Under the pieces are notes generated by a model. That model searched no databases, was not told where the DNA came from, and worked only from the letters and a program-made list of their open reading frames with translations. The position numbers and the translations under genes are program-made. Shown one piece after another: positions 628 through 14,944 of a stretch of 64,000 nucleotides of DNA. The number at the start of each line of letters is the position of its first letter. Positions within the stretch are counted from its first letter, which is position 1. Source of the DNA: Alkalispirillum mobile (lineage in GTDB: Bacteria > Pseudomonadota > Gammaproteobacteria > Nitrococcales > Halorhodospiraceae); the NCBI RefSeq assembly GCF_003664325.1, contig NZ_RCDA01000001.1, positions 1,676,866-1,740,865 of the forward strand, in the 5' to 3' direction.

Positions 628-2067
628 TCAATGGCAGGGCGCGCAGTCCGGTAGCGCCGGCCCGATGCCCTGCCGGCGCCCGGGGTTGAAGGGCTGGTCC
701 GTGCCGTAGGCGCCCCAGCGATCGGTGGTCCGCTCCCGGGCGTTGAAGTCCAGCGACACGTCCGGCAGGCCGCTGGCCGCCGGCTGGGTGGCCTCGTCAC
801 GGCCGAGCGCCCCATCCCGGGGGTACAAATCGAGCTCGTGCAGCGCCGCCAGCGGCGCTACCAGATACTCGCCTGCACGCTCCAGGGACTCGGTGTAGTT
901 TTCGTCTGCCGAAGCCAGCCCGTCCGGCAGGCGCAACGGCCGGTCCGCGAATACGGCGTTGCCCGCCACCTGCTGGGTATGGTCGCCGTGGGGCCGGTCC
1001 AGCCGGATACCGAACCCGCCCGCCACCACGGTGTTATTCAGGATCAGCACCTCCCGAGGCAAATCGTTGTGGGGCATGAAGATCAGCCCGTCCCCCTGGC
1101 GGTTCACGAACAGGTTGTTATACAGCGCCACGTGCCCCTCGCCCTGGAACAGCCGCTCATGGGGATTCTCGTAGAAGAGATTGCCGTAGACCCGGTAGCG
1201 GTCCTCGCTGCCCGGCCCCTCCAGCGGCCAGTGCCCCAGCAGCAGGTTGGGGCGGGCGCGGCCCCCGCTGCTGCCCCCCTCCGATTTGTCGAACACGTTG
1301 TAGCGGATCACCGTCTCCTTGGGATCCACGGGCATGCCGGGCAGGGTGTCGCGGGGGTTCTGGTGCTTGATCTGCATGTTGTAGCCCCGGGTGCGGGCCA
1401 CGTGGTTGTGTTCGATCAGCCCGTTGATGAAGGGCGCACTGCCGTCAGACTGCCCCAGGTAGAGCCCCGTGCCCACGTCGCGGATGTCGTTGTGCCGGAT
1501 CACCCAGTTCCAGGCCGGCACCCGGTTGGTAATGCCGGTATTGCCCTGGCCGCGGTCGTAGTTGCGGATACGCAGATGCTCGAGGGTGATGTCGTGGGCG
1601 TAATTGCCGTGGGCCTCGGCCACCACGCCGGCGATGGGGTGGCGTTGGCCATCCAGGGTCAGGTGGCGCACCACGATGTGGGCGCTGTCCAGCAGACTGA
1701 CGGTATTCGCCCCCGGGCGGCCCAGCAGCACGGCCGGGTCCCCCTCGGCCGGCCCGGAGACGACGATGGGCGCCTCGGCCGTGCCCTGGAGGCGGCGCAG
1801 GGACAGCGGGCGGGGGTACTCGCCCGGCGCCAGCTGCAGCCAGTCCCCGGGCTGCAACCGGGCAACCGCCTCGCGGTAGTCCTCGGGCCCGGCCTGGATG
1901 ACCCGGCGGGGCTCGGGCAGGCCGGAATCCGGGTCGGGGTGCTCACCCGCTGCCACCGCCATGGGCAGCGCCGCCAGCGCCAGCAGCAGACCGAGGCCGC
2001 AGACCTGCCACGCCCAATCCGCCGCCCGCTGGCCGCCGGCTGCCACCCATCGCCCGAAAACCTTCAT
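628..2067 (-). CDS. exported right-handed parallel beta-helix protein with C-terminal CAPCH
   Basis: The protein has 479 residues. A long hydrophobic stretch (about 24-40, LGLLLALAALPMAVAAG) predicts a signal peptide. The body has the turn-rich, N- and V-rich repeat pattern of parallel beta-helix proteins of the polysaccharide-lyase/NosD type (for example VVRHLTLDG, NWVIRHNDIRDV, LIEHNHVART, VALYNNLFVN, VLILNNTVVAGGFGIRL). Such proteins often modify or cut uronate polymers in the periplasm, which fits the adjacent uronate-forming dehydrogenase and the polymerase on the other side. The last five residues are CAPCH, a CxxCH haem-attachment consensus, which is unusual here. No catalytic residues could be assigned, so enzymatic activity is an inference. 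It converges on the dehydrogenase with a 15-base gap. Confidence 0.8.
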   Translation of the reverse strand: MKVFGRWVAAGGQRAADWAWQVCGLGLLLALAALPMAVAAGEHPDPDSGLPEPRRVIQAGPEDYREAVARLQPGDWLQLAPGEYPRPLSLRRLQGTAEAPIVVSGPAEGDPAVLLGRPGANTVSLLDSAHIVVRHLTLDGQRHPIAGVVAEAHGNYAHDITLEHLRIRNYDRGQGNTGITNRVPAWNWVIRHNDIRDVGTGLYLGQSDGSAPFINGLIEHNHVARTRGYNMQIKHQNPRDTLPGMPVDPKETVIRYNVFDKSEGGSSGGRARPNLLLGHWPLEGPGSEDRYRVYGNLFYENPHERLFQGEGHVALYNNLFVNRQGDGLIFMPHNDLPREVLILNNTVVAGGFGIRLDRPHGDHTQQVAGNAVFADRPLRLPDGLASADENYTESLERAGEYLVAPLAALHELDLYPRDGALGRDEATQPAASGLPDVSLDFNARERTTDRWGAYGTDQPFNPGRRQGIGPALPDCAPCH

Positions 2068-2329: not shown

Positions 2330-5300
2330 ATGGCCCCGCGTGAGCCGTGGCAGTACAGCACCTGCGTCATCTGGGCCTGGCTGTCGTTGGCCGGCGCCGT
2401 CTACCTGACCCTGCTGCCCTTCCAGTTCGGTGACGTCACCCTGCAGCAGGCCTGGGAGACCTACCGCAACATGAGCCTGACCGGCCCCGGAGCATCGGGC
2501 CGGGCCCAGTTCATGGCCAACCTCTTCATGTTCATGCCGCTGGGGTTCTTCTGGGCCGCCTGGCTTTCCTACGGGCAGCGCGGGCTGGGGGTGGCCCTGC
2601 GCGCCTTCCTGGCCGTGGCCACCCTCGGCCTGCTGACCACCGCCACGGTGGAGTTCCTGCAGGTCTGGCTGCCCTTCCGCCACCCGGCGGGCGCCGATAT
2701 CGCCGGCAACTTCACCGGCGCGGTGGCCGGTGCACTCGCCTGGTTCGCCCTGCGCGAGCCGCTGGGCCGCTGGGCGCGGGCGCTGTCCCGTCCGGGGCCG
2801 CAGGCCTTGCAGATCGCGCTGGCGATTTACGCCGCGGCCTACGTGGCCGCCGGGCTGGTCCCCTTCGACCTGGTGCTCTCCGCGGACGAACTGGCCCGTC
2901 GACTGCAGTCGGCCTCTGCCTGGGGGCTCTGGACCACGCCGGATGCCTGCACCGCCGGGCTTCGCTGTTACGCCTGGCTGACCCTCGAGGTGGCGGCCGC
3001 CATCCCGGTGGGCCTGCTGTTGGGGTACTGGCTGATGGGCCGGGGCATCGCTCCGTTGCTCGCCGGCATACCGCTGGCCGTCGCGTTGGGTGCCGCGCTG
3101 GAACTGCTCAACCTGTTGACCCTCAGCGGCATCACCGAGGGGCGCTCGGTACTGCTGCGCGCCCTGGGCATCACCCTGGGGCTCATCCTCTGCCGGCACG
3201 GGCCGGCACGGCCCGATGCGCTACTGGACCCGCTGGGGCGGCGCGCCCTGCTCATTGTGGCCCTCGCCACGCCCCTGTACCTGCTGCTCCTGCTGGGGCT
3301 GAACCACGGCCTGGGGCCCTACCACGCCGACTTCGCCCGCGCCTGGGCGCAGTTTGGCGAGCTGCGCCTGATCCCGTTCTATTACCACTACCACGTACCC
3401 GAGATCGTTGCCCTGCGCAGCACGGCGCTGCACCTGGCCATGTATCTGCCGGTGGGGGTGCTGGCCTGGCTCTGGCAGCTGCGGCACCCCCTGGGCCAGC
3501 GCCAGTTCTACACGCTGGCCGTCACCGCCGGTGTACTCACCGCCCTGGCCATGGAGACGGGCAAGCTGTTCGTGGAAAACGCCCGGCCCGACCCGGCCAG
3601 CCTGGTACTGGGCGGACTGGCTGCCTGGGGCGCGGCCGCCACGCTGGCCTGGCTGACCGCCACCAGCGGTGCCATCCGGCAGCGGCCGGAGGCGGACGGC
3701 GCGCCGGAACCCCCGGCCGCACCCCGCTTCGCCCTGACCGGGGAAAGCCCCTGGCACCAGGCGACGGCAGGGCTGTTGCTGCTGTTCACGCTGGCACTGG
3801 CCATCAGCTGGCCGGTGGCCGCCTGGGCCCTGACCCCGGCCCTGATCGGATACGCCGGGCTGCTGCTCTGGCGGCCGCAATTCGGCCTGCTGATCATCCC
3901 GGCGCTCATCCCCACGCTGGACCTGGGCCTGTACACCGGCCGGCTGTACCTCTCGGAGCTCGACCTTTTCCTGGCGGCCACCCTCGCCGTGGTGCTCTGG
4001 CGCTGGCCCCGGCGCCCTGGCCGCAGCCTGCTCGCCACCGCCATCCGCTGGCCGCTCTACCTGCTGCTGGCCTCCACCCTGATCAGTCTGGCCCTCACCC
4101 TGGTGCCACCAGGCCGGATCGACCTGGGACAGCTCTACCACTACGGCCACCAGTGGAACGGGCTGCGGGTGGCCAAGGGGCTGTTCGGTGCCCTGTTGCT
4201 GCTGGGGCTCATGCGCATCACCCCGCTGCCGCGGCGCGAGCAGTTGGAGCACTGGTGCCTGCCCGGCGTGGCGCTCGGGCTGCTCGGTGCGTTGCTCATC
4301 ATCCTGCGCGAGCGCATCACCTATCCCGGGCTACTGGACCTGGACAGCCGCTACCGGATTACCGGCTTTTTTACCGACATGCACGTGGGCGGCCCCAGCG
4401 TGGAGACCTACCTGGTCCTGGCACTGGGGGCAGTGCTGGCCTGGGGGGCGCGCAAGCGCTTTGGGGCAGCGCTCACTCTGCTGGCCACCCTGGGCACCGG
4501 TTACGCCATAGCGGTCACCTATTCCCGGGGTGGTTACCTGGGGCTGGTGGTGGTCCTGCTGCTGTTCCTGGCCCTGGCATTGGTAGCCGCGCTGCGGCGC
4601 CGCCCACCGGCAGGTGAGGGTGACCACCCCGCCCCGGCCCCGGGGCGCGGTCACCTGGTGGCGGCGGCGCTGGCCCCCGTGCTGGCGGTGGCCGCGGTGG
4701 CCATCCCGTTCGCGGACAGTTTTGGCGAACGGCGCCTGGGCCAGGTGGGGCAGGATATGGAGCAACGCATCAGCCACTGGCAGGGCGGCTTGGCGCTGCC
4801 CGGTGGTACGGCATTCTCTCCGATGGTCGGCCGGGGGCTGGGCAGCTTCCCCGAGGCCTACCGTATTGGCAATCCGCAGGGCGTGCTACCGGCCAACTTC
4901 GGCTTCACCCGCAATGACGGGGAGTCCCTCCTGAGGCTCGGCCAGGGCGCCTCCCTGTTCCTGAATCAGCGGGTCTCGCCGCCCACCGGCACCCCGTTGC
5001 AGCTGCGCGCACGCGTACGCAGCGCCGCGCCGGCCGGTCTCGGCATCTACCTCTGCGAAAAGCCGGTGCGCCACTCCTTCGAGTGCCGCAACACCACCCT
5101 GCAACTGCCCGAGGGCTCCGGGTGGGTCACCCTCGGCTGGTCGACCACCACCGAGGGCATGGCGGATCAGGCGTGGCCCTTCCAGCGCGGGCTGGTACTG
5201 TCGCTGAGCAACCGGGGCCGCGACGGCGCCATTATCGACGTGGCCCAGCTGTCGCTCACCGATCCAGAGGGTCGCGAATACCTGCGCAACGGCGACTTCG

Positions 5301-5671
5301 CCCGCATGGGCCAGCACTGGTACATGAGTACCGACAACCTGGACACCTGGCGGCTGGAGAACCAGTGGCTGGAGGTCTACTTCGATCAGGGGGCGCTGGG
5401 GGTGATCGCCTTCGTTTGGCTGACCCTCGCCGGCATGGTGCTGCTGGTGCGGCGCGGCCTGCGGGGCGACGTGACGGCCATGGGCATCGCCGCCGCACTG
5501 GCCGGGGCGTTGACCGTGGGGCTGTTCAGCACCATCTTCTTCTCGGAGCGGATCACGTTGCTTTTCTATCTGCTCCTTCTGCTCGGGGTTGCCGGAACCG
5601 CGCGCGGGTCTAAGCTTGGTCCGGCGGGGGCAACAGCCATGCACCCACCAGGTGACAGGGAGAGGGTTTGA
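2330..5671 (+). CDS. VanZ-repeat / O-antigen ligase-polymerase fusion with periplasmic insert
   Basis: This is a 1113-residue integral membrane protein. Residues 1 to about 460 contain three VanZ-like units. The first shows FMANLFMFMPLGFF and then EFLQVWLPFRHPAGADIAGN, the E-Q-F-P-R-D-N pattern of VanZ; the second and third are more divergent (ELLNLLTLSGITEGRS, LIPFYYHYHVPE). Residues from about 480 to 820 resemble the Wzy/WaaL O-antigen ligase family, including TYSRGGYLGL. A soluble, probably periplasmic segment (about 830-1020) sits between the last polymerase helices and looks like a beta-sandwich/carbohydrate-binding module. Final helices follow. Usual Wzy proteins have about 400-450 residues, so this is a fusion. 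It probably polymerises or ligates the exopolysaccharide. Its stop overlaps the next start by 4 bp. Confidence 0.82.
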   Translation: MAPREPWQYSTCVIWAWLSLAGAVYLTLLPFQFGDVTLQQAWETYRNMSLTGPGASGRAQFMANLFMFMPLGFFWAAWLSYGQRGLGVALRAFLAVATLGLLTTATVEFLQVWLPFRHPAGADIAGNFTGAVAGALAWFALREPLGRWARALSRPGPQALQIALAIYAAAYVAAGLVPFDLVLSADELARRLQSASAWGLWTTPDACTAGLRCYAWLTLEVAAAIPVGLLLGYWLMGRGIAPLLAGIPLAVALGAALELLNLLTLSGITEGRSVLLRALGITLGLILCRHGPARPDALLDPLGRRALLIVALATPLYLLLLLGLNHGLGPYHADFARAWAQFGELRLIPFYYHYHVPEIVALRSTALHLAMYLPVGVLAWLWQLRHPLGQRQFYTLAVTAGVLTALAMETGKLFVENARPDPASLVLGGLAAWGAAATLAWLTATSGAIRQRPEADGAPEPPAAPRFALTGESPWHQATAGLLLLFTLALAISWPVAAWALTPALIGYAGLLLWRPQFGLLIIPALIPTLDLGLYTGRLYLSELDLFLAATLAVVLWRWPRRPGRSLLATAIRWPLYLLLASTLISLALTLVPPGRIDLGQLYHYGHQWNGLRVAKGLFGALLLLGLMRITPLPRREQLEHWCLPGVALGLLGALLIILRERITYPGLLDLDSRYRITGFFTDMHVGGPSVETYLVLALGAVLAWGARKRFGAALTLLATLGTGYAIAVTYSRGGYLGLVVVLLLFLALALVAALRRRPPAGEGDHPAPAPGRGHLVAAALAPVLAVAAVAIPFADSFGERRLGQVGQDMEQRISHWQGGLALPGGTAFSPMVGRGLGSFPEAYRIGNPQGVLPANFGFTRNDGESLLRLGQGASLFLNQRVSPPTGTPLQLRARVRSAAPAGLGIYLCEKPVRHSFECRNTTLQLPEGSGWVTLGWSTTTEGMADQAWPFQRGLVLSLSNRGRDGAIIDVAQLSLTDPEGREYLRNGDFARMGQHWYMSTDNLDTWRLENQWLEVYFDQGALGVIAFVWLTLAGMVLLVRRGLRGDVTAMGIAAALAGALTVGLFSTIFFSERITLLFYLLLLLGVAGTARGSKLGPAGATAMHPPGDRERV

Positions 5672-6402
5672 CGGACAAGGGTTTTGAAGCGCGTTGGCGC
5701 GAGCGCTTCACCGCGCGCGGCGCACAGCTGGATGACGACGCCGGGATTGCCGGCTGGACGCCCACCGGGCTGAACAGTCGTGTCCGCCAGTTCCAGCGCC
5801 TGTGGCAGCAGACACCGGGCCAGGCCGGGCGCTGGCTGGATATCGGCTGTGGCGCCGGCACCTACACCCGCATGCTGCACCAGCAGGGCTATGCCGTGGC
5901 CGGGCTGGATTACTCCGCACCGTCGCTGCACAAGGCCCAGGCGCGCAGCCCGCAAGGCATTCCCTGGCTGGCAGCGGACATCCACCACCTGCCACTGGCC
6001 GACAACACCGCCGACGGCATCCTCTGTTTCGGGGTCATGCAGGCGCTGGCCGACCCGGCCCCGGCACTGGCGGAGCTGCGCCGGGTGCTGAAGCCCGGCG
6101 GCGAGCTCTGGGTCGATGCCCTCAACGCCCGCTGCCTGCCCACGGCCCTGCGGGAACAGCGTCGGCGGCGGGCCGGGCGCCCCCCGCACCTGCGCTACGA
6201 TGACCCGCAGGCCCTGCGCGCCCTGGCGCAAGCCTCCGGGTTGCAAACGGTCGCGCTGCACTGGCTGCCACTGGCCCCCGGGCGACTGTCGGCGCTGCAA
6301 CCCCTGCTGGAGGCCGGTATCAGCCGGGCCGCACTCTCGGCGCTGGCACCCTTGGGAGGAGGCCTGAGCCACTCTTTCATCCTGCGCACCCGGGCGATCT
6401 GA
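5668..6402 (+). CDS. class I SAM-dependent methyltransferase
   Basis: The protein has 244 residues and begins at a TTG that overlaps the upstream stop (TTGA), so the two genes are translationally coupled. It has the class I Rossmann methyltransferase signature: WLDIGCGAGTYTRML (motif I, about residues 50-64), VAGLDYS (motif II acidic residue) and VLKPGGELWVDA (post-motif III). It resembles the Methyltransf_11 family. It is probably a small-molecule or glycan methyltransferase, and coupling to the polymerase suggests a polysaccharide or lipid-linked sugar substrate, but the sequence does not fix the acceptor. Confidence 0.85.
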   Translation: MTDKGFEARWRERFTARGAQLDDDAGIAGWTPTGLNSRVRQFQRLWQQTPGQAGRWLDIGCGAGTYTRMLHQQGYAVAGLDYSAPSLHKAQARSPQGIPWLAADIHHLPLADNTADGILCFGVMQALADPAPALAELRRVLKPGGELWVDALNARCLPTALREQRRRRAGRPPHLRYDDPQALRALAQASGLQTVALHWLPLAPGRLSALQPLLEAGISRAALSALAPLGGGLSHSFILRTRAI

Positions 6403-6731
6403 GTACTGGATGTAAATATTACCAACAGCCCCGCGCCCGGTGCGGGTCCTTCCATGTCAGGCTGCGCCCGGGCCAGAACCTTCTATACTCCGGCTGTGGC
6501 CGCTGACAGCGGCGGATGGGCGGATCGGGAACGGCGCAAGAACGCCAGTCACGTCGGTTTTTTTTACAGACCGATTGGCGACGGCCACACGCTCATTCGA
6601 GTGCCGCGCGCATTATTACGCAGAAACAGCAGGTTGGGAACGGGAAAAGAAGGCGGATCGAATTTTGCATGTAATCATGCAACGATGCCCCAGCGACAAC
6701 CAGCAGGGCGGTCTTTCTCAGGGTGACCCAC
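6403..6731 (+). promoter_or_regulatory. 329-bp leader region upstream of the Tat/PqqD/kinase cassette
   Basis: This gap is visibly less GC-rich than the flanking genes and has no convincing gene. It holds an 11-bp palindrome GTAAATATTAC (6412-6422), a -10-like TATACT (6484-6489) without a clear -35, a GCCGCTG-A-CAGCGGC hairpin (6499-6513), a run of eight T (about 6558-6565) and an 18-bp inverted repeat TTGCATG-TAAT-CATGCAA (6665-6682). It most likely contains the promoter and operator of the downstream cassette. Which elements are functional is not known. Confidence 0.5.
6665..6682. repeat. 18-bp inverted repeat, candidate operator
   Basis: Perfect 7-bp arms TTGCATG and CATGCAA flank TAAT, 49 bp before the ATG of the Tat-signal gene. 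The geometry is that of a dimeric regulator site. No regulator is identified. Confidence 0.5.
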
Positions 6732-7373
6732 ATGGCGCACAAGAACGTGGACAAACCGGAAACCGATAACTCAACGAAGCGACCGCGCGGCGTCAGCCGT
6801 CGGCGTTTCGGCCAGACTGCACTGGCCAGCGCACCCGTGGTGCTGATGGCGATGCACAGTCGCCCGCTCAAGGCCTCGGTCGCGGCCAACTGCACGCCAT
6901 CCGGCTGGGTCTCCGGCAACACCTCGCCCCACCACGAGAAGGAGCCGTGCGGGGGGCGCACCCCGGGCTACTGGGCGGGCGGCAACCCGCATCACCCGCA
7001 GGGCTGGGTGGACAACAAGGACACGCTGGTCAACTCCAGTTACGGGTTCCCCGGCATCACCTATTTCGATGGCAGCGGCCCGGATGGCGAGGCGACCATG
7101 CTGGACGCCGTCAGTGGCCCCGGGCAGTACCCGCTGGGCATCAATTCCACCGACGAGCGGCAGGTCCTGCGCTTCGGCACTGCCGCACTGTTGAATGCCA
7201 AGTACTCGGAGGTCACGGACGGTTATCCCCTCTCCGAGGCCCAGGTGCGCGAGATGGTCATCGCCGTGCTCACCACCGGTTTCTACGAGAGCGGTACCGG
7301 TGAAACGCTGAACATGGAACAGATGCACCGCTTCCTGAAAAACACCATGGAGGCACCCACCTGGGGGCCTTAA
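6732..7373 (+). CDS. Tat-signal exported protein, first gene of HPr-rel-A-like cassette
   Basis: The protein has 213 residues. The ATG at 6732 is preferred over GTG 6723 because AGGGTG lies six bases before it. The N terminus has a twin-arginine signal: SRRRFGQTAL followed by the hydrophobic ASAPVVLMAM, so it is exported folded. The mature part begins with a Cys/Gly/aromatic-rich region (NCTPSGWVSGN, CGGRTPGYWAGGN), a short motif type seen in several exported proteins of unknown function. The rest looks globular. Neighbours are a PqqD-like protein (13-bp gap), an HPr-kinase-like kinase and a nucleotidyltransferase, so it may be the substrate or effector of that set. No enzyme family is recognised. 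Confidence 0.78.
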   Translation: MAHKNVDKPETDNSTKRPRGVSRRRFGQTALASAPVVLMAMHSRPLKASVAANCTPSGWVSGNTSPHHEKEPCGGRTPGYWAGGNPHHPQGWVDNKDTLVNSSYGFPGITYFDGSGPDGEATMLDAVSGPGQYPLGINSTDERQVLRFGTAALLNAKYSEVTDGYPLSEAQVREMVIAVLTTGFYESGTGETLNMEQMHRFLKNTMEAPTWGP

Positions 7374-7386
7374 CCTGGGGTAGCTG

Positions 7387-7656
7387 ATGCAGGACGCTGT
7401 CAGGCTACAGGACTGGGCACTCGCCCCGGAGACCGAGTACCGCTTCTGCGACGACCTGGTGCTGGCCTTCCATGCCGGCACCGGTGATACCCTCGTGCTG
7501 GCGGGAGCCGGGGCAGAGCTGCTAACGCTTCTGGACCGGCCGTCGGCTGATCACCCCGACACCCCCGAACCGGCCCTGCCGGCGCCTGCCGATTGCCAGG
7601 AAGCCCTGGAGGCCCTCCGTGACGCCGGCCTGATCCAGCCGAGGGCGCAAGCCTGA
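7387..7656 (+). CDS. PqqD-family small protein, HPr-rel-A system type
   Basis: The protein has 89 residues, the usual size for PqqD-like RRE (RiPP recognition element) proteins, which bind a leader or substrate and present it to a modifying enzyme. The N-terminal half has the alternating pattern of the PqqD winged-helix fold (YRFCDDLVLAFHAGTGDTLV, then LLTLLDRP). The C-terminal helix is ALEALRDAGLIQP. Its stop overlaps the next ATG by one base (TGATG), showing coupling to the HprK-like kinase. Assignment to the HPr-rel-A family rests mainly on this order of genes, which matches that set. Its binding partner is unknown. Confidence 0.72.
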   Translation: MQDAVRLQDWALAPETEYRFCDDLVLAFHAGTGDTLVLAGAGAELLTLLDRPSADHPDTPEPALPAPADCQEALEALRDAGLIQPRAQA

Positions 7657-8561
7657 TGCAGGTTTCAGAGCTGGGCACCCGGGAACTGCGCCGGCGCCTC
7701 ACCCACGCAGGGCTCTGCCTGCAAACCGGCCCCTTTCGCACCCGCATCCACAGCCGGATACCCGCCGTGGCCGACGGCATTGCCTTTCAGTACCGCGACT
7801 TCCCGGTGGTACCGGCCGACAGCTTTTGCGACTTCCGCTGCCACCTGCGGGCGCCGCGCACCCTGCGCCGCTTCCACCGCCCGCAGGTGCTGTTCCTGGC
7901 CGACGGCCGCAGCATCTTCAAGCCCCTGGCCTACCACCAAGCCTTTCCCATGCTGGAGTGGGGCATGAACTGGTGCGTGGCCAACCAGACGCCCGAACAC
8001 CTGGTCTTCCACGCCGCCGCGCTGGCCCGTGGTGAGCGCGCGTTGATACTCCCCGCGCCGCCGGGTGCCGGGAAAAGCACCCTGTGTGCCGCCCTGGCCC
8101 AGCGGGGCTGGCGCCTGCTCACCGACGAGTCCACCCTGCTGGACCCGGCCAGCGGCAGCGTCTGCGGCCCGGCCCGGCCGGTGAGCCTTAAGAACGCCTC
8201 TATCGAGGTGCTGCGCCGCTTCGCGCCGGAGGCGGTCATAGGCCCCGCCTGCCACGACACCATCAAGGGCACGGTGGCGCACATGCGCCCGCCCGAGGGG
8301 AGCGCGTTGGCGGCCGGGCAACCGGCGCGCCCGGCCTGGCTGGTCTTTCCCCGCTACCAGCCGGGCGCGGAAACCCGTCTCACACCCCGTCACCCGGCGG
8401 AGGCCTTTATGGAAATGGCTTCACAGGCCTTCAACTACGCTAACCTTGGTCGTACTGCCTTTCACGCCACAGCGGACCTGATCGACCAGGTGGAGGCCTA
8501 CGACTTTGTCTACAGCCGACTCGAGGAAGCCATCGACTGCTTCGATGCGCTGGCCGACTGA
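7656..8561 (+). CDS. HprK-related kinase A
   Basis: The protein has 301 residues. Its P-loop APPGAGKST (134-142) follows a conserved HLVFHAAALARGERALILP stretch, the layout of the C-terminal domain of HPr kinase/phosphorylase; LLTDESTLLDP supplies the second acidic motif. HPr kinases phosphorylate a Ser in a protein partner; relatives tailor lasso peptides. No PTS genes are nearby, so HPr itself is an unlikely substrate. It is translationally coupled to the PqqD-like gene and overlaps the following nucleotidyltransferase by about 17 bases, so all three are probably made together. Candidate substrates are the Tat protein upstream or an unseen peptide. Confidence 0.82.
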   Translation: MQVSELGTRELRRRLTHAGLCLQTGPFRTRIHSRIPAVADGIAFQYRDFPVVPADSFCDFRCHLRAPRTLRRFHRPQVLFLADGRSIFKPLAYHQAFPMLEWGMNWCVANQTPEHLVFHAAALARGERALILPAPPGAGKSTLCAALAQRGWRLLTDESTLLDPASGSVCGPARPVSLKNASIEVLRRFAPEAVIGPACHDTIKGTVAHMRPPEGSALAAGQPARPAWLVFPRYQPGAETRLTPRHPAEAFMEMASQAFNYANLGRTAFHATADLIDQVEAYDFVYSRLEEAIDCFDALAD

Positions 8562-9675
8562 CGGGACGCGGGACCTGACCCGCCTGCTGGCCGACCCCGA
8601 ATCGGCGCACGCCCTCAGCCCGTTGCAGTGGGAAGGGGTGGTCACCGCCGGGCGGGAGACCACGCTGCTGGGCACCCTCTGGCACCGGTTGAACCAGGCG
8701 CAATGCCAAACGGCCGTGCCGCAAGCCGTGGCGTGGCACCTGCGCGGCGCACAGCGCGTCGCCGACCGCCAGGCCGAGGCCCTGCGCTGGGAGCTGCGCG
8801 AGCTGCAGGACGGCATGCTGCAGCGGATGGCAGCCCCCATCCTGCTCAAGGGGGCCGCCTACCTGCTGGCAGACCTGCCCAACGCCCGGGGCCGCTTCTG
8901 CAACGATATCGACCTGATGTTCCCGGAGGACCAGCTGGAGCGGGCGGAATCGCTGCTCTTCTTTGATGGCTGGCTGGGCAGCCATCACGATGAGTATGAT
9001 CAGCGCTACTACCGCGAGTGGATGCACGAACTGCCCCCGCTGCAGCACCAGCGCCGAGGCACCACCCTCGACCTGCACCACAACATCCTGCCCCGCACCT
9101 TCCGCGTGACCGTGGACGCGGAACGGCTGTGGAGGCATTCGCAACCCCTGCCCGCCCCCTGGCGCTTCCGCGTGCTCTGCCCGGTGCACCGGGTGCTGCA
9201 CTGTGTGGTTCACCTCTACTCGGAGACCGACTGGGACCGGGGGCTGCGCGATCTCTACGACATCCACGCGCTCATCGGGCACTGCACGGCCGAGGAGGGG
9301 GCCGGCTTCTGGGATGCGCTGATCAGCGAGGCGGAGACCCTGGGCCTGGGCTGGCTGCTGGCACCGGCCGTGCGCGACTGTCAGCAGCGCTTCCGCCTGC
9401 CAGTACCGGCCGAAGCCGACCGCCGCCTGCACCGCCACCAGGGCCTCGCGGCGCTCAGGCCACTGCGCCGGCGGGTGTTTCACTACGGGCTCAACACCCG
9501 GACCACCCGCACGCCCGCGCGCGACGCCCTGGCCCGGGGGCTATTATTCTTCAGGGGGCACTGGCTGAAGATGCCGCCCGGCCTGCTGGTTCGGCACCTG
9601 ACGTACAAGGCCCTGCACGGGGACAAGGACGACCCGCCCACCCCGCAGGCCAACCAACCGGAACAACACGGATAA
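8545..9675 (+). CDS. nucleotidyltransferase family protein (NTP_transf_5 type)
   Basis: The start at ATG 8545 gives 376 residues and a 17-bp overlap with the kinase; an upstream TTG (8506) would overlap more and is less likely. The nucleotidyltransferase core is visible: LLKGAAYLLADLP (the G-containing strand-helix) and RFCNDIDLMFPED with the DxD metal-binding pair, followed by TTLDLHHNILP as the third acidic strand. The family is poorly characterised, but members accompany HprK-like kinases and PqqD-like proteins in peptide- or protein-modifying clusters. It probably transfers a nucleotide monophosphate to an unknown acceptor. The gene is followed after 15 bp by manC. Confidence 0.8.
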   Translation: MRWPTDGTRDLTRLLADPESAHALSPLQWEGVVTAGRETTLLGTLWHRLNQAQCQTAVPQAVAWHLRGAQRVADRQAEALRWELRELQDGMLQRMAAPILLKGAAYLLADLPNARGRFCNDIDLMFPEDQLERAESLLFFDGWLGSHHDEYDQRYYREWMHELPPLQHQRRGTTLDLHHNILPRTFRVTVDAERLWRHSQPLPAPWRFRVLCPVHRVLHCVVHLYSETDWDRGLRDLYDIHALIGHCTAEEGAGFWDALISEAETLGLGWLLAPAVRDCQQRFRLPVPAEADRRLHRHQGLAALRPLRRRVFHYGLNTRTTRTPARDALARGLLFFRGHWLKMPPGLLVRHLTYKALHGDKDDPPTPQANQPEQHG

Positions 9676-11151: not shown

Positions 11152-12006
11152 CTACTGCTGCTGGTCGAGTAGCTGCTGCAGCGCGCTGGCGGGCACCGCG
11201 TAGCTGATGCCGCTGGGGCTACCCACCGCTGCCTCGCGGCCGCCTTGGACAAACACCTGGTTGATGATACCCACTACCTCGCCGGTATCGATCCGGTAGA
11301 GCGGGCTACCACTGTTGCCGGGGTAGGCGGTACCGTCCAGTTGGAACACCATGGGGCGGTTTCGCCGCAACTGGGCGACTCGGCCGGCATCCAGTTGCCC
11401 GCTGTGGGCGGCCGGCAAAGCCATCGGGGTGCGGGCCGAAACCGACGCACGGTGGGTGGCCGGATACATCCCGAGGATCATGCCGATCGGAAACCCGGTC
11501 AGTGCCAGCTTCTCCCCGGTACGCACCGCATCCGAATCACCCAGGGTGAGGGCGGGAAGGGCTGCGCCTGAGATGCGCAGCAGGGCCAGATCATGGCTGT
11601 CACTGTCCGCGACTTTCTCCGCATGGCGCATGTCCAGATCCCGCCCGGTCCCCGCCACCACCACCAGCCGCTCGCGTGCCTCCGTATCCAGGCGGTCGGG
11701 CAACACGTGCAGGTTGGTGGCCACCAGCCGCCCGTCACCAACAACAAACCCGGTACCCAAGTGGTTCAGCCGTGGGCTGCGGGTGGACTGGTAGGTGGCG
11801 ATACTCACGATGGCGGGCTCCACCCGCTCCACCGTGTCCGGCAGGCTGTCCGCCTGCGCCAGGCGGGGCGCGAACAGCAAGATCAACAGCACCATCACAA
11901 CCACCACCAGCAGTACCCAGCGGACGACACCACGGGCGTTGCCGGGGTAGGCAGAGGTGGAGGAGGAGCAGGTCAGGTCGGCTTTCCGCATCAGCATTAT
12001 GATCAT
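11152..12006 (-). CDS. membrane-anchored trypsin-like serine protease
   Basis: The protein has 284 residues. One strong membrane segment (about 28-46, WVLLVVVVMVLLILLFAP) is followed by a trypsin-fold domain in the periplasm. The triad is visible: His100 in LVATNLHVLP, Asp139 in SHDLALLRI and Ser232 in AYPGNSGSPLY. There is no room for a PDZ domain, so it differs from DegP/DegQ and resembles single-domain S1C-type proteases. The start at 12006 adds MIIML before MRKADL; the second Met is equally possible. The substrate is unknown. Confidence 0.85.
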   Translation of the reverse strand: MIIMLMRKADLTCSSSTSAYPGNARGVVRWVLLVVVVMVLLILLFAPRLAQADSLPDTVERVEPAIVSIATYQSTRSPRLNHLGTGFVVGDGRLVATNLHVLPDRLDTEARERLVVVAGTGRDLDMRHAEKVADSDSHDLALLRISGAALPALTLGDSDAVRTGEKLALTGFPIGMILGMYPATHRASVSARTPMALPAAHSGQLDAGRVAQLRRNRPMVFQLDGTAYPGNSGSPLYRIDTGEVVGIINQVFVQGGREAAVGSPSGISYAVPASALQQLLDQQQ

Positions 12007-13246: not shown

Positions 13247-14944
13247 ATGACCGCAATCTGCCGCACCCTTGCCCTGCTGCTCCTCGCCCTGCCGCTGGCC
13301 GTCGCCGCCGTGGACGAGCCGGGGTTCGACGACCAGGTTGCCGAGCATCTGCGGGACCGCCTGGAGGCGGCCACCGCCGAGGCCCAGGGCAGCGAGGCGG
13401 ACCCGGAGGCGAACCCCCTGCACCGGTTCTACGTGGAACGGGTCTACCGCCCCGCCTGGACCCGGGACGGGACGCCACGCTCCACCGCTGACCAACTGCT
13501 GGCCGTGGTCGAGGAGAGCCGCGACCACGGCCTGGACCCGGAAGCCTATGACCACGAGGCGCTCATCGAGCGGCTGGCGGACTGGTCCGACGAGGCGGGC
13601 GTCTCCGCCACGGCCGACCTGGAGTTGCGCCTCACCCGCACCTGGTTGCAACTGGCCGAGGATGCCCTCACCGGACAGCTCAACCCCGACGTCGTCGCCC
13701 CCGACTGGGAGCTGCAGCCGCCCCCCTCGGAGGATCTGGTGGCCGCCCTGCAGGCCGGTCTCGAGCAAAACGACGTGGCCGAGGCGTTGCGGGCCCTCTA
13801 CCCGGAGGACACCCGCTACGAGCACATGCGGCGAGGACTGCGTGAGATGGAGGCCCTGGCCGAGGCGCACATCTACCCCCGCCTGGCCATCGGGCCGACC
13901 CTCCGTGCGGGCGATCGGGATGACCGGGTGCGGACACTGCGTGAACAGCTCTACCTGCTCGGCGATATCGGCGAGGCCCCCGCAACGGTCGCGGACGAGC
14001 TGTTCGACGAAGCCCTGGAGGCCGCCGTGCGCCGCTTTCAGCGCCGGCATGGGCTGCAGGAGGACGGCCTGGTGGGGCCACGCACGCTGGCCGCGCTCAA
14101 TATCCATCCGTCACGGCGGGCCGAGCAGCTCCGGGTCAACATGGAGCGCGCGCGCTGGATGCCGCGCGATCTGGGCGAGCGCTACATTCTGGTGAATATC
14201 GCCGGATTCAGCATGACCGTCTACGACCAGGGCGAGGCCGTGATCAATCAGCGGGTGGTGGTGGGCCGGGACTACCGCCGGACGCCGGTGTTCACCGGGC
14301 GGATGACCTATCTGGTCCTCAACCCGGCCTGGGAGGTGCCCCACAGCCTGGCTACCCGCGATATCCTGCCCCAGATCCAGCGCGACCCGGACCACCTGGA
14401 GCGCATGGGCTTCCGCGTGCTGCAGGGCTGGGGCGAGGCGGAGCGGGTCATCGACCCCGAGACGGTGGACTGGGACAGCCTCTCCCGGCGCCACTTTCCC
14501 TACCGGCTGCGCCAGCTGCCCGGGCCGCAAAACGCCATGGGGCAGGTCAAGTTCATGTTCCCCAACCGCCACAACGTCTATCTGCACGACACGCCGGCGC
14601 GGGAGCTGTTCGACCAGCCCCGTCGGGCCTTCAGCTCCGGGTGCATCCGTATCGAGCGGCCGCTGGAGCTGGCCGCCTGGTTGTTGCGGGACCATCCCGA
14701 CTGGTCGGCAGAGGCCATTGACCGGGCACTGGAACGGGGCCGGGGCGGGCGGGAGCGCACGGTCTCACTGCCGCGGAGCATCCCCGTCCACCTGCAGTAC
14801 TGGACCGCCTGGGCCGACCAAGACGGCACCCTGCACTTTCGCGAGGACCTCTACGACCGCGACGCCGGCATCGCGGCAGCACTGGCCGCCGATACCCCTG
14901 ATGAGGAGGAGGTGTGGCCGGAGCTGGGGCTGAGCCTGCGGTGA
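13247..14944 (+). CDS. murein L,D-transpeptidase, YcbB/LdtD-like
   Basis: The protein has 565 residues. An N-terminal signal peptide (RTLALLLLALPLAVAA) sends it to the periplasm. A helical scaffold domain follows, then a peptidoglycan-binding domain (about 225-285, VRRFQRRHGLQEDGLVGPRT) and a YkuD catalytic domain (about 310-490). Catalytic Cys466 lies in FSSGCIRIERP, with the conserved His upstream in NVYLHDTPAR. The size and order match E. coli YcbB/LdtD, which forms 3-3 cross-links in peptidoglycan. The stop is directly against the stop of the convergent MoeB/ThiF-like gene. Confidence 0.92.
   Translation: MTAICRTLALLLLALPLAVAAVDEPGFDDQVAEHLRDRLEAATAEAQGSEADPEANPLHRFYVERVYRPAWTRDGTPRSTADQLLAVVEESRDHGLDPEAYDHEALIERLADWSDEAGVSATADLELRLTRTWLQLAEDALTGQLNPDVVAPDWELQPPPSEDLVAALQAGLEQNDVAEALRALYPEDTRYEHMRRGLREMEALAEAHIYPRLAIGPTLRAGDRDDRVRTLREQLYLLGDIGEAPATVADELFDEALEAAVRRFQRRHGLQEDGLVGPRTLAALNIHPSRRAEQLRVNMERARWMPRDLGERYILVNIAGFSMTVYDQGEAVINQRVVVGRDYRRTPVFTGRMTYLVLNPAWEVPHSLATRDILPQIQRDPDHLERMGFRVLQGWGEAERVIDPETVDWDSLSRRHFPYRLRQLPGPQNAMGQVKFMFPNRHNVYLHDTPARELFDQPRRAFSSGCIRIERPLELAAWLLRDHPDWSAEAIDRALERGRGGRERTVSLPRSIPVHLQYWTAWADQDGTLHFREDLYDRDAGIAAALAADTPDEEEVWPELGLSLR

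Follow-up and report, generated by a model that had tools for sequence, protein, structure and literature searches.

VanZ-1, a member of the Lipocone superfamily, is described by an Asn in H2, an ExxQ motif in H3 and a DxDDxxxN motif in H4. It has been linked to exopolysaccharide genes, including those for WaaL-like enzymes, and to domain fusions in general, and lipid-linked head groups have been proposed as the targets of the VanZ families (PMC12419801). Wzy polymerases and WaaL ligases, which share the Wzy_C domain and belong to clan GT-C1 (PMC10920833), have conserved arginines and a large near-C-terminal loop that ends in x-N-x9-G-x-x-G. Here, we analyse a gene of Alkalispirillum mobile that joins both kinds of membrane protein, together with an insert predicted to have a carbohydrate-binding module (CBM) fold, in one chain of 1113 residues. 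The gene lies at positions 2330 to 5671 of a stretch of 64,000 nucleotides (assembly GCF_003664325.1, contig NZ_RCDA01000001.1, positions 1,676,866 to 1,740,865 of the forward strand), referred to as the window.

The protein joins these known kinds. As for VanZ-1, its first VanZ unit has the Asn in H2, ExxQ in H3 and an Asp in H4, but there are three units in tandem, the H4 motif is partial, and there is a fixed fusion to a partner that is either Wzy-like or heparinase-type. Compared with Wzy and WaaL proteins, Wzy_C is under its cut-off, a Glu stands in for the His, the loop holds a sandwich of ~160 residues, and a VanZ block precedes the domain. TIGR03097, the putative O-glycosylation ligase of exosortase A (XrtA) systems, is of the same superfamily and encoded in the same genomic region as the fusion, but it is a separate gene of 469 residues that has the motif His and is devoid of VanZ. 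The predicted β-sandwich of the insert resembles CBM6, CBM16, CBM36 and CBM4 (best Z 11.3), whereas its sequence identity to them is low and its location is inside the loop of a membrane enzyme. Neither the triple block nor a CBM-type insert within the catalytic loop was found in the literature searched, and the same holds for the heparinase fusion and for the link to XrtA; the words "heparinase" and "exosortase" are absent from the main text of PMC12419801, the supplements of which may list this architecture.

Architecture of the fusion protein

The gene and its parts are as follows:

2330..5671, plus strand: triple-VanZ / Wzy-like / CBM-like-insert fusion gene, 1113 residues, open reading frame (ORF) with ATG start
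2375..2776, plus strand: VanZ unit 1, residues 16-149; Pfam VanZ; N64, E108, Q111, R117, D123
2801..3199, plus strand: VanZ unit 2, residues 158-290; profile match to unit 1; changed site E220, E258, S273, R277
3254..3661, plus strand: VanZ unit 3, residues 309-444; profile match to unit 1; changed site E358, E409, K412, D421
3764..4864, plus strand: Wzy/WaaL-like membrane domain, first part, residues 479-845; Wzy_C at 720-836, under cut-off
4868..5341, plus strand: β-sandwich insert, residues 847-1004, with Cys909 and Cys919; placed by domain limits, model and CBM matches
5345..5605, plus strand: Wzy-like domain, last part, residues 1006-1092; E1010-N-x9-G-x-x-G replaces H-N-x9-G-x-x-G

Three homologous VanZ units are followed by a Wzy/WaaL-like membrane domain that carries a β-sandwich insert at residues ~847-1004. 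The original prediction, a 1113-residue fusion of VanZ-like units with a polymerase/ligase domain containing SRGG, is borne out by the ORF, by the Pfam match to VanZ (PF04892, two stretches, 55.1 bits against a cut-off of 30.1) and by SRGG at S732-G735. Wzy_C (PF04932, residues 720-836) reaches 23.4 bits against a cut-off of 31.7. The NCBIfam matches are all distant, IctB-like in the second half and VanZ in the first, and a phmmer search of PDB sequences with the whole protein gave no match. Within its own 2.95-Mb genome, the gene matches only itself, i.e., there is no second copy.

The full-length model, calculated from four sequences, has a mean predicted local distance difference test score (pLDDT) of 40.4, which is too poor for use, and it was left out of the fold search; it has four long helices per VanZ unit, where pLDDT is mostly <50. 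For this reason the VanZ units are defined by sequence profiles and not by structure. The profiles, built from 37, 31 and 29 family segments for units 1, 2 and 3 and compared profile against profile, match one another with probabilities of 98.2% (units 1 and 2, E-value 4.3e-14), 97.3% (units 1 and 3, 2.7e-11) and 95.0% (units 2 and 3, 3.9e-8), while three control comparisons with the polymerase and insert parts gave 0.1-0.5%. The three VanZ units of the original prediction are thereby recovered at the profile level. Unit 1 has the Asn of H2 (N64) and the ExxQ of H3 (E108xxQ111), whereas units 2 and 3 differ from the VanZ-1 pattern. In an alignment of 29 modules, the unit 1 residues are conserved in 28 (N64), 29 (E108), 28 (Q111), 29 (R117) and 29 (D123) cases, and they are retained whichever partner domain the block has. 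The changed sites are conserved as well, in unit 2 (E220 in 25, E258 in 29, S273 in 25, R277 in 25) and in unit 3 (E358 in 28, E409 in 29, K412 in 22, D421 in 28). A charge count in the VanZ loops, 13 Lys or Arg in 114 "inside" residues versus 10 in 151 "outside" residues, is weakly informative.

The loss of the standard pattern from units 2 and 3, the partial H4 motif of unit 1, and the occurrence of the block with unlike partners (see below) would be compatible with a VanZ block that is a catalytically dead scaffold, or a docking platform for the lipid carrier, with all chemistry performed by the C-terminal partner. We regard this as possible, although somewhat doubtful: the near-complete retention of N64, E108, Q111 and D123 in unit 1 goes beyond what a scaffold needs.

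The insert follows a GxGxG stretch (residues 834-838) and precedes the Glu1010 motif. This places it in the loop where ligases carry their catalytic residue, which is presumed to be the catalytic loop here. When residues 843-1008 were modelled alone, from two sequences, a structure of 12 strands was obtained (mean pLDDT 71.0, predicted template-modelling score (pTM) 0.69). Its best structural match is the CBM6 chain 2cdp_B (Z 11.3, root-mean-square deviation 2.3, 114 aligned residues), followed by CBM36, CBM16 and CBM4 at Z ~10, and Foldseek returned CBM4 (1gu3_A, E-value 1.9e-4). The model thus has a CBM-type β-sandwich fold, as the original prediction had proposed for an inserted soluble segment at residues ~830-1020, with 10-18% identity to the CBM entries listed. 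The family profile finds chain 4mgq, named as glycosyl hydrolase family 10, at an E-value of 1.4e-6 over 45 residues with a shared end motif, and 4mgq is also the only PDB sequence found by the polymerase-part profile, via the insert. Pfam CBM_4_9 matches one of 18 relatives (E-value 0.0021). Cys909 is kept in all 18 and Cys919 in 17, which would fit a periplasmic disulfide.

In the membrane domain, R613, E661, R662, R676, R733, R802, D809 and R813 are identical in the 18 relatives, of which 17 match Wzy_C at E-values up to 1 (best 2.8e-10). We take the ligase motif to be H[NSQ]x9GxxG, with its His presumably at H338 of Escherichia coli WaaL and H349 of Neisseria meningitidis PglL. Both residues are listed as important (PMC3643930). 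In the window protein the position of the ligase His is occupied by Glu1010, so that it lacks the His expected of a WaaL-type ligase, and His is absent from this column in the 18 relatives. In clan GT-C1, the polymerase families have Glu or Asp at the position of the O-antigen ligase His; GT127 is the exception, with a conserved Glu in the loop that connects helices 5 and 6 (PMC10920833). Glu or Asp occupies column 1010 in 12 of the 18 relatives, i.e., the column varies. Candidates without variation at other positions are E661 and D809, and the invariant E661 may be a candidate of the GT127 kind.

Recurrence and exchange of partner domains

Complete fusions of three VanZ units, Wzy-like domain and insert are present in 13 proteins from 13 genomes, which answers the search for the same architecture suggested in the original prediction: the window genome, those with our handles G001, G038, G143, G159, G176, G274, G300, G347, G365, G373 and G379, and one Thiobacillaceae genome. 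Conservation of the entire arrangement across these 13 genomes means that it is not a chance event. The insert is carried by all 18 complete Wzy-like relatives examined, and the Wzy-like domain with insert occurs without VanZ in five proteins. The triple VanZ block stands alone in eight proteins, plus two at contig edges, and is joined to a heparinase II/III-type C-terminus in six proteins, with three more in which the units have diverged and unit 1 alone is detected. A Pfam scan of eight proteins gave both VanZ and Hepar_II_III_C over their cut-offs in six (four complete, two diverged); the other two, a mis-chosen ORF and a protein with Wzy-like domain and insert, had no match. The heparinase-group assignment of G114, G123 and G140 was made with the family-specific profile only. 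In the window genome, a search with PF07940 for a heparinase gave no matches.

These counts were made separately from the neighbour clustering, which used an automatic ORF choice that was wrong for one ORF in L067. Contig-end fragments in G008, the contig-edge proteins of G002 and G019, a second copy of one G159 gene and a 346-residue Ectothiorhodospira protein with two units were set aside. A phylum-wide profile search matched 59 of 398 genomes, five of them at E-values < 1e-60 (G000, G159, G671, G738 and G794, the last from outside the class); G671, G738 and G794 lie outside the architecture counts, and the other 54 matches were too weak to be counted (3.8e-9 or worse).

In a tree of the 29 modules, strong branches pair fused with unfused forms, G001 with G003 (100/100) and G373 with Ectothiorhodospira (99/98), and the starred branches force at least four changes of the Wzy-fused label; of the 26 inner branches of this tree, 11 are open, and the tree includes a long branch (G298) and six rows of unusual composition. 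The adjacency of the two forms and the forced label changes would suit an accidental merger of neighbouring genes with no functional link. We consider such a merger very improbable: the recurrence of the fusion in 13 genomes argues strongly against it, the other fused partner is also of a polysaccharide-enzyme type, and G003 has both halves as separate genes within one locus.

Some further arrangements were observed. The protein with Wzy-like domain and insert in G186 (L060 7895-11158, minus strand; 1087 residues) is extended at its C-terminus by ~430 residues, in which Pfam finds no match. In G389 (L064 3773-11085, plus strand), two genes for VanZ-heparinase fusions lie in tandem, and the VanZ units of the first have diverged. 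Separate proteins of 352-372 residues with one recognisable VanZ unit adjoin the triple-VanZ gene in four genomes (L012 6812-7870; L065 10206-11309; L076 10762-11865; L077 7570-8688).

Association with exosortase A and the genomic neighbourhood

The family is associated with XrtA. Among 369 sampled genomes across the class (two samples of this size are taken as the same because their handles agree), there are family matches in 32 at E-values ≤ 1e-3, and XrtA is over its cut-off in 73. XrtA is present in 23 of the 25 genomes with a strong match (E-value < 1e-10) versus 50 of the 344 others (Fisher p 6e-16, calculated on species that are not independent). The remaining seven matched genomes (E-values 1e-10 to 1e-3) lie outside the 23/25 count, and two of them (G140 and G372) have XrtA over its cut-off. 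Of these 23 strong-match genomes with XrtA, 13 encode it on the contig of the family member, within ~101 kb, and 10 on a different contig.

In the window genome, the XrtA gene is ~53 kb upstream of the fusion gene, which lies beyond the XrtA exopolysaccharide locus. That locus encodes an XrtA-type chain-length determinant, a kinase, a deacetylase, an amidotransferase, the ligase TIGR03097, an acyl-CoA ligase and a decarboxylase, together with a flippase-like protein that scores under its cut-off. There is a single VanZ match in the genome and three of the Wzy_C type: TIGR03097, one from a different contig, and the fusion, which is under the cut-off. Identity of the window protein with TIGR03097 was considered and dropped, TIGR03097 being a separate gene.

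The Wzy/WaaL-like domain could instead be a ligase that moves the finished glycan to a PEP-CTERM protein or a lipid, with the VanZ block docking the donor or anchoring the product. Wzy_C spans ligases and polymerases alike, the XrtA locus has a putative O-glycosylation ligase, and a His lies two residues ahead of position 1010 in some relatives. We nevertheless find this unlikely, as the same locus already contains TIGR03097, over its cut-off and with the His kept in its motif, and the window protein has Glu in this position, as GT-C1 polymerases do. Because a His-type ligase coexists with a Glu-type fusion, a polymerase role for the fusion would be the simplest division of labour.

The genes that flank the fusion are:

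628..2067, minus strand: β-helix-type protein, divergent neighbour; Pfam PF12708 (E-value 0.014) and NosD matches, both under cut-off
5668..6402, plus strand: S-adenosylmethionine (SAM)-dependent methyltransferase; the listed start overlaps the fusion stop by 4 bases

The overlap suggests that the fusion and methyltransferase genes may be translationally coupled. A relative of the β-helix-type protein passes Beta_helix PF13229, and relatives are found near the fusion family in 12 of 33 other genomes; in this comparison the flanking stretches span ~3 to 20 kb, so that absence means little. Downstream, a cassette at 6723-9675 (plus strand) encodes a 216-residue protein with a start that appears twin-arginine-like by eye, HprK-related kinase A (TIGR04352, over cut-off) and NTP_transf_5; relatives of the latter two are each near the family in 10 of the 33 genomes. 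A DegP/HtrA-like (trypsin-like) protease at 11152-12006 (minus strand) is below the NCBIfam cut-offs and has relatives near the family in 16 of the 33, and the 565-residue ORF at 13247-14944 (plus strand) resembles an L,D-transpeptidase by eye.

The original prediction had also suggested that one chain joins polymer recognition, polymerisation and an anchoring or glycopeptide-like function. Recognition and polymerisation agree with the fold and the genomic context. The glycopeptide part is not supported: no vanY- or vanA-type genes are among the neighbours scanned, some neighbours being outside the scan, the scanned neighbours are mostly polysaccharide genes, and the family goes with XrtA. Anchoring could correspond to a Lipocone/VanZ domain that releases or transfers a lipid-linked chain, which is one of several readings.

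A proposed role in exopolysaccharide assembly

We favour, with an even measure of confidence and doubt, an assembly enzyme of the XrtA system that works on exopolysaccharide at the periplasmic face and is composed of a polymerase, an insert that holds the glycan and a VanZ block that handles the lipid end. The protein would be placed in the inner membrane, facing the periplasm. Repeat units linked to undecaprenyl diphosphate would arrive at the periplasmic face and be joined by the Wzy/WaaL-like domain, more probably acting as polymerase than as ligase. The CBM-like sandwich, which on the basis of its modelled fold may bind glycan, could hold the growing chain beside the active site like a clamp from its position in the loop of the catalytic residue. 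The three Lipocone/VanZ units would bind the undecaprenyl-phosphate end in the outer leaflet, where unit 1 probably cleaves or transfers the head group, leading to chain release or hand-over, and units 2 and 3, with their changed but conserved sites, may bind rather than cut.

Several observations speak against this assignment. Wzy_C is under its cut-off in the window protein. Glu1010 is not invariant, since the column contains E in 10, D in 2, K in 3, L in 2 and S in 1 of the 18 relatives, and 8 of the 18 have a His two residues earlier; the catalytic base is therefore uncertain. The match lists of the insert model also contain domains that do not bind sugars or belong to toxins, such as those of Cry and Vip3, which share the fold, and for this reason the fold alone does not prove sugar binding. 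In unit 1, the full DxDDxxxN of H4 is not present, as D123 (and N127 in the window protein) is kept and the other Asp residues are lost, and that VanZ proteins are enzymes is itself a prediction from the literature. Finally, 50 of the 73 XrtA genomes are without a strong family match, and two of the 25 strong-match genomes are without XrtA over its cut-off (G105, no match; G300, below cut-off); the fusion family is therefore not core to XrtA.

Since the VanZ block is also found joined to lyase-type partners in other genomes, its job would be one common to building and trimming of a polymer. Tentatively, and with less than even confidence, we extend the favoured reading to a general membrane module of XrtA exopolysaccharide systems, in which the triple-VanZ block handles the lipid-carrier end and plugs into a chain-building enzyme, Wzy-like with a CBM-type clamp, or a chain-cutting enzyme of the heparinase II/III type, with unit 1 releasing or handing over the undecaprenyl-linked chain. 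The biochemical role of VanZ is not settled, and little is known of the way in which long exopolysaccharides are retained, completed and released at the membrane. If true, the general module would assign to VanZ a definite enzymatic step in the assembly of polysaccharides. The natural joining of VanZ to a polymerase-like enzyme with a CBM-type insert, and elsewhere to a lyase-type domain, provides a testable place for VanZ, with named residues.

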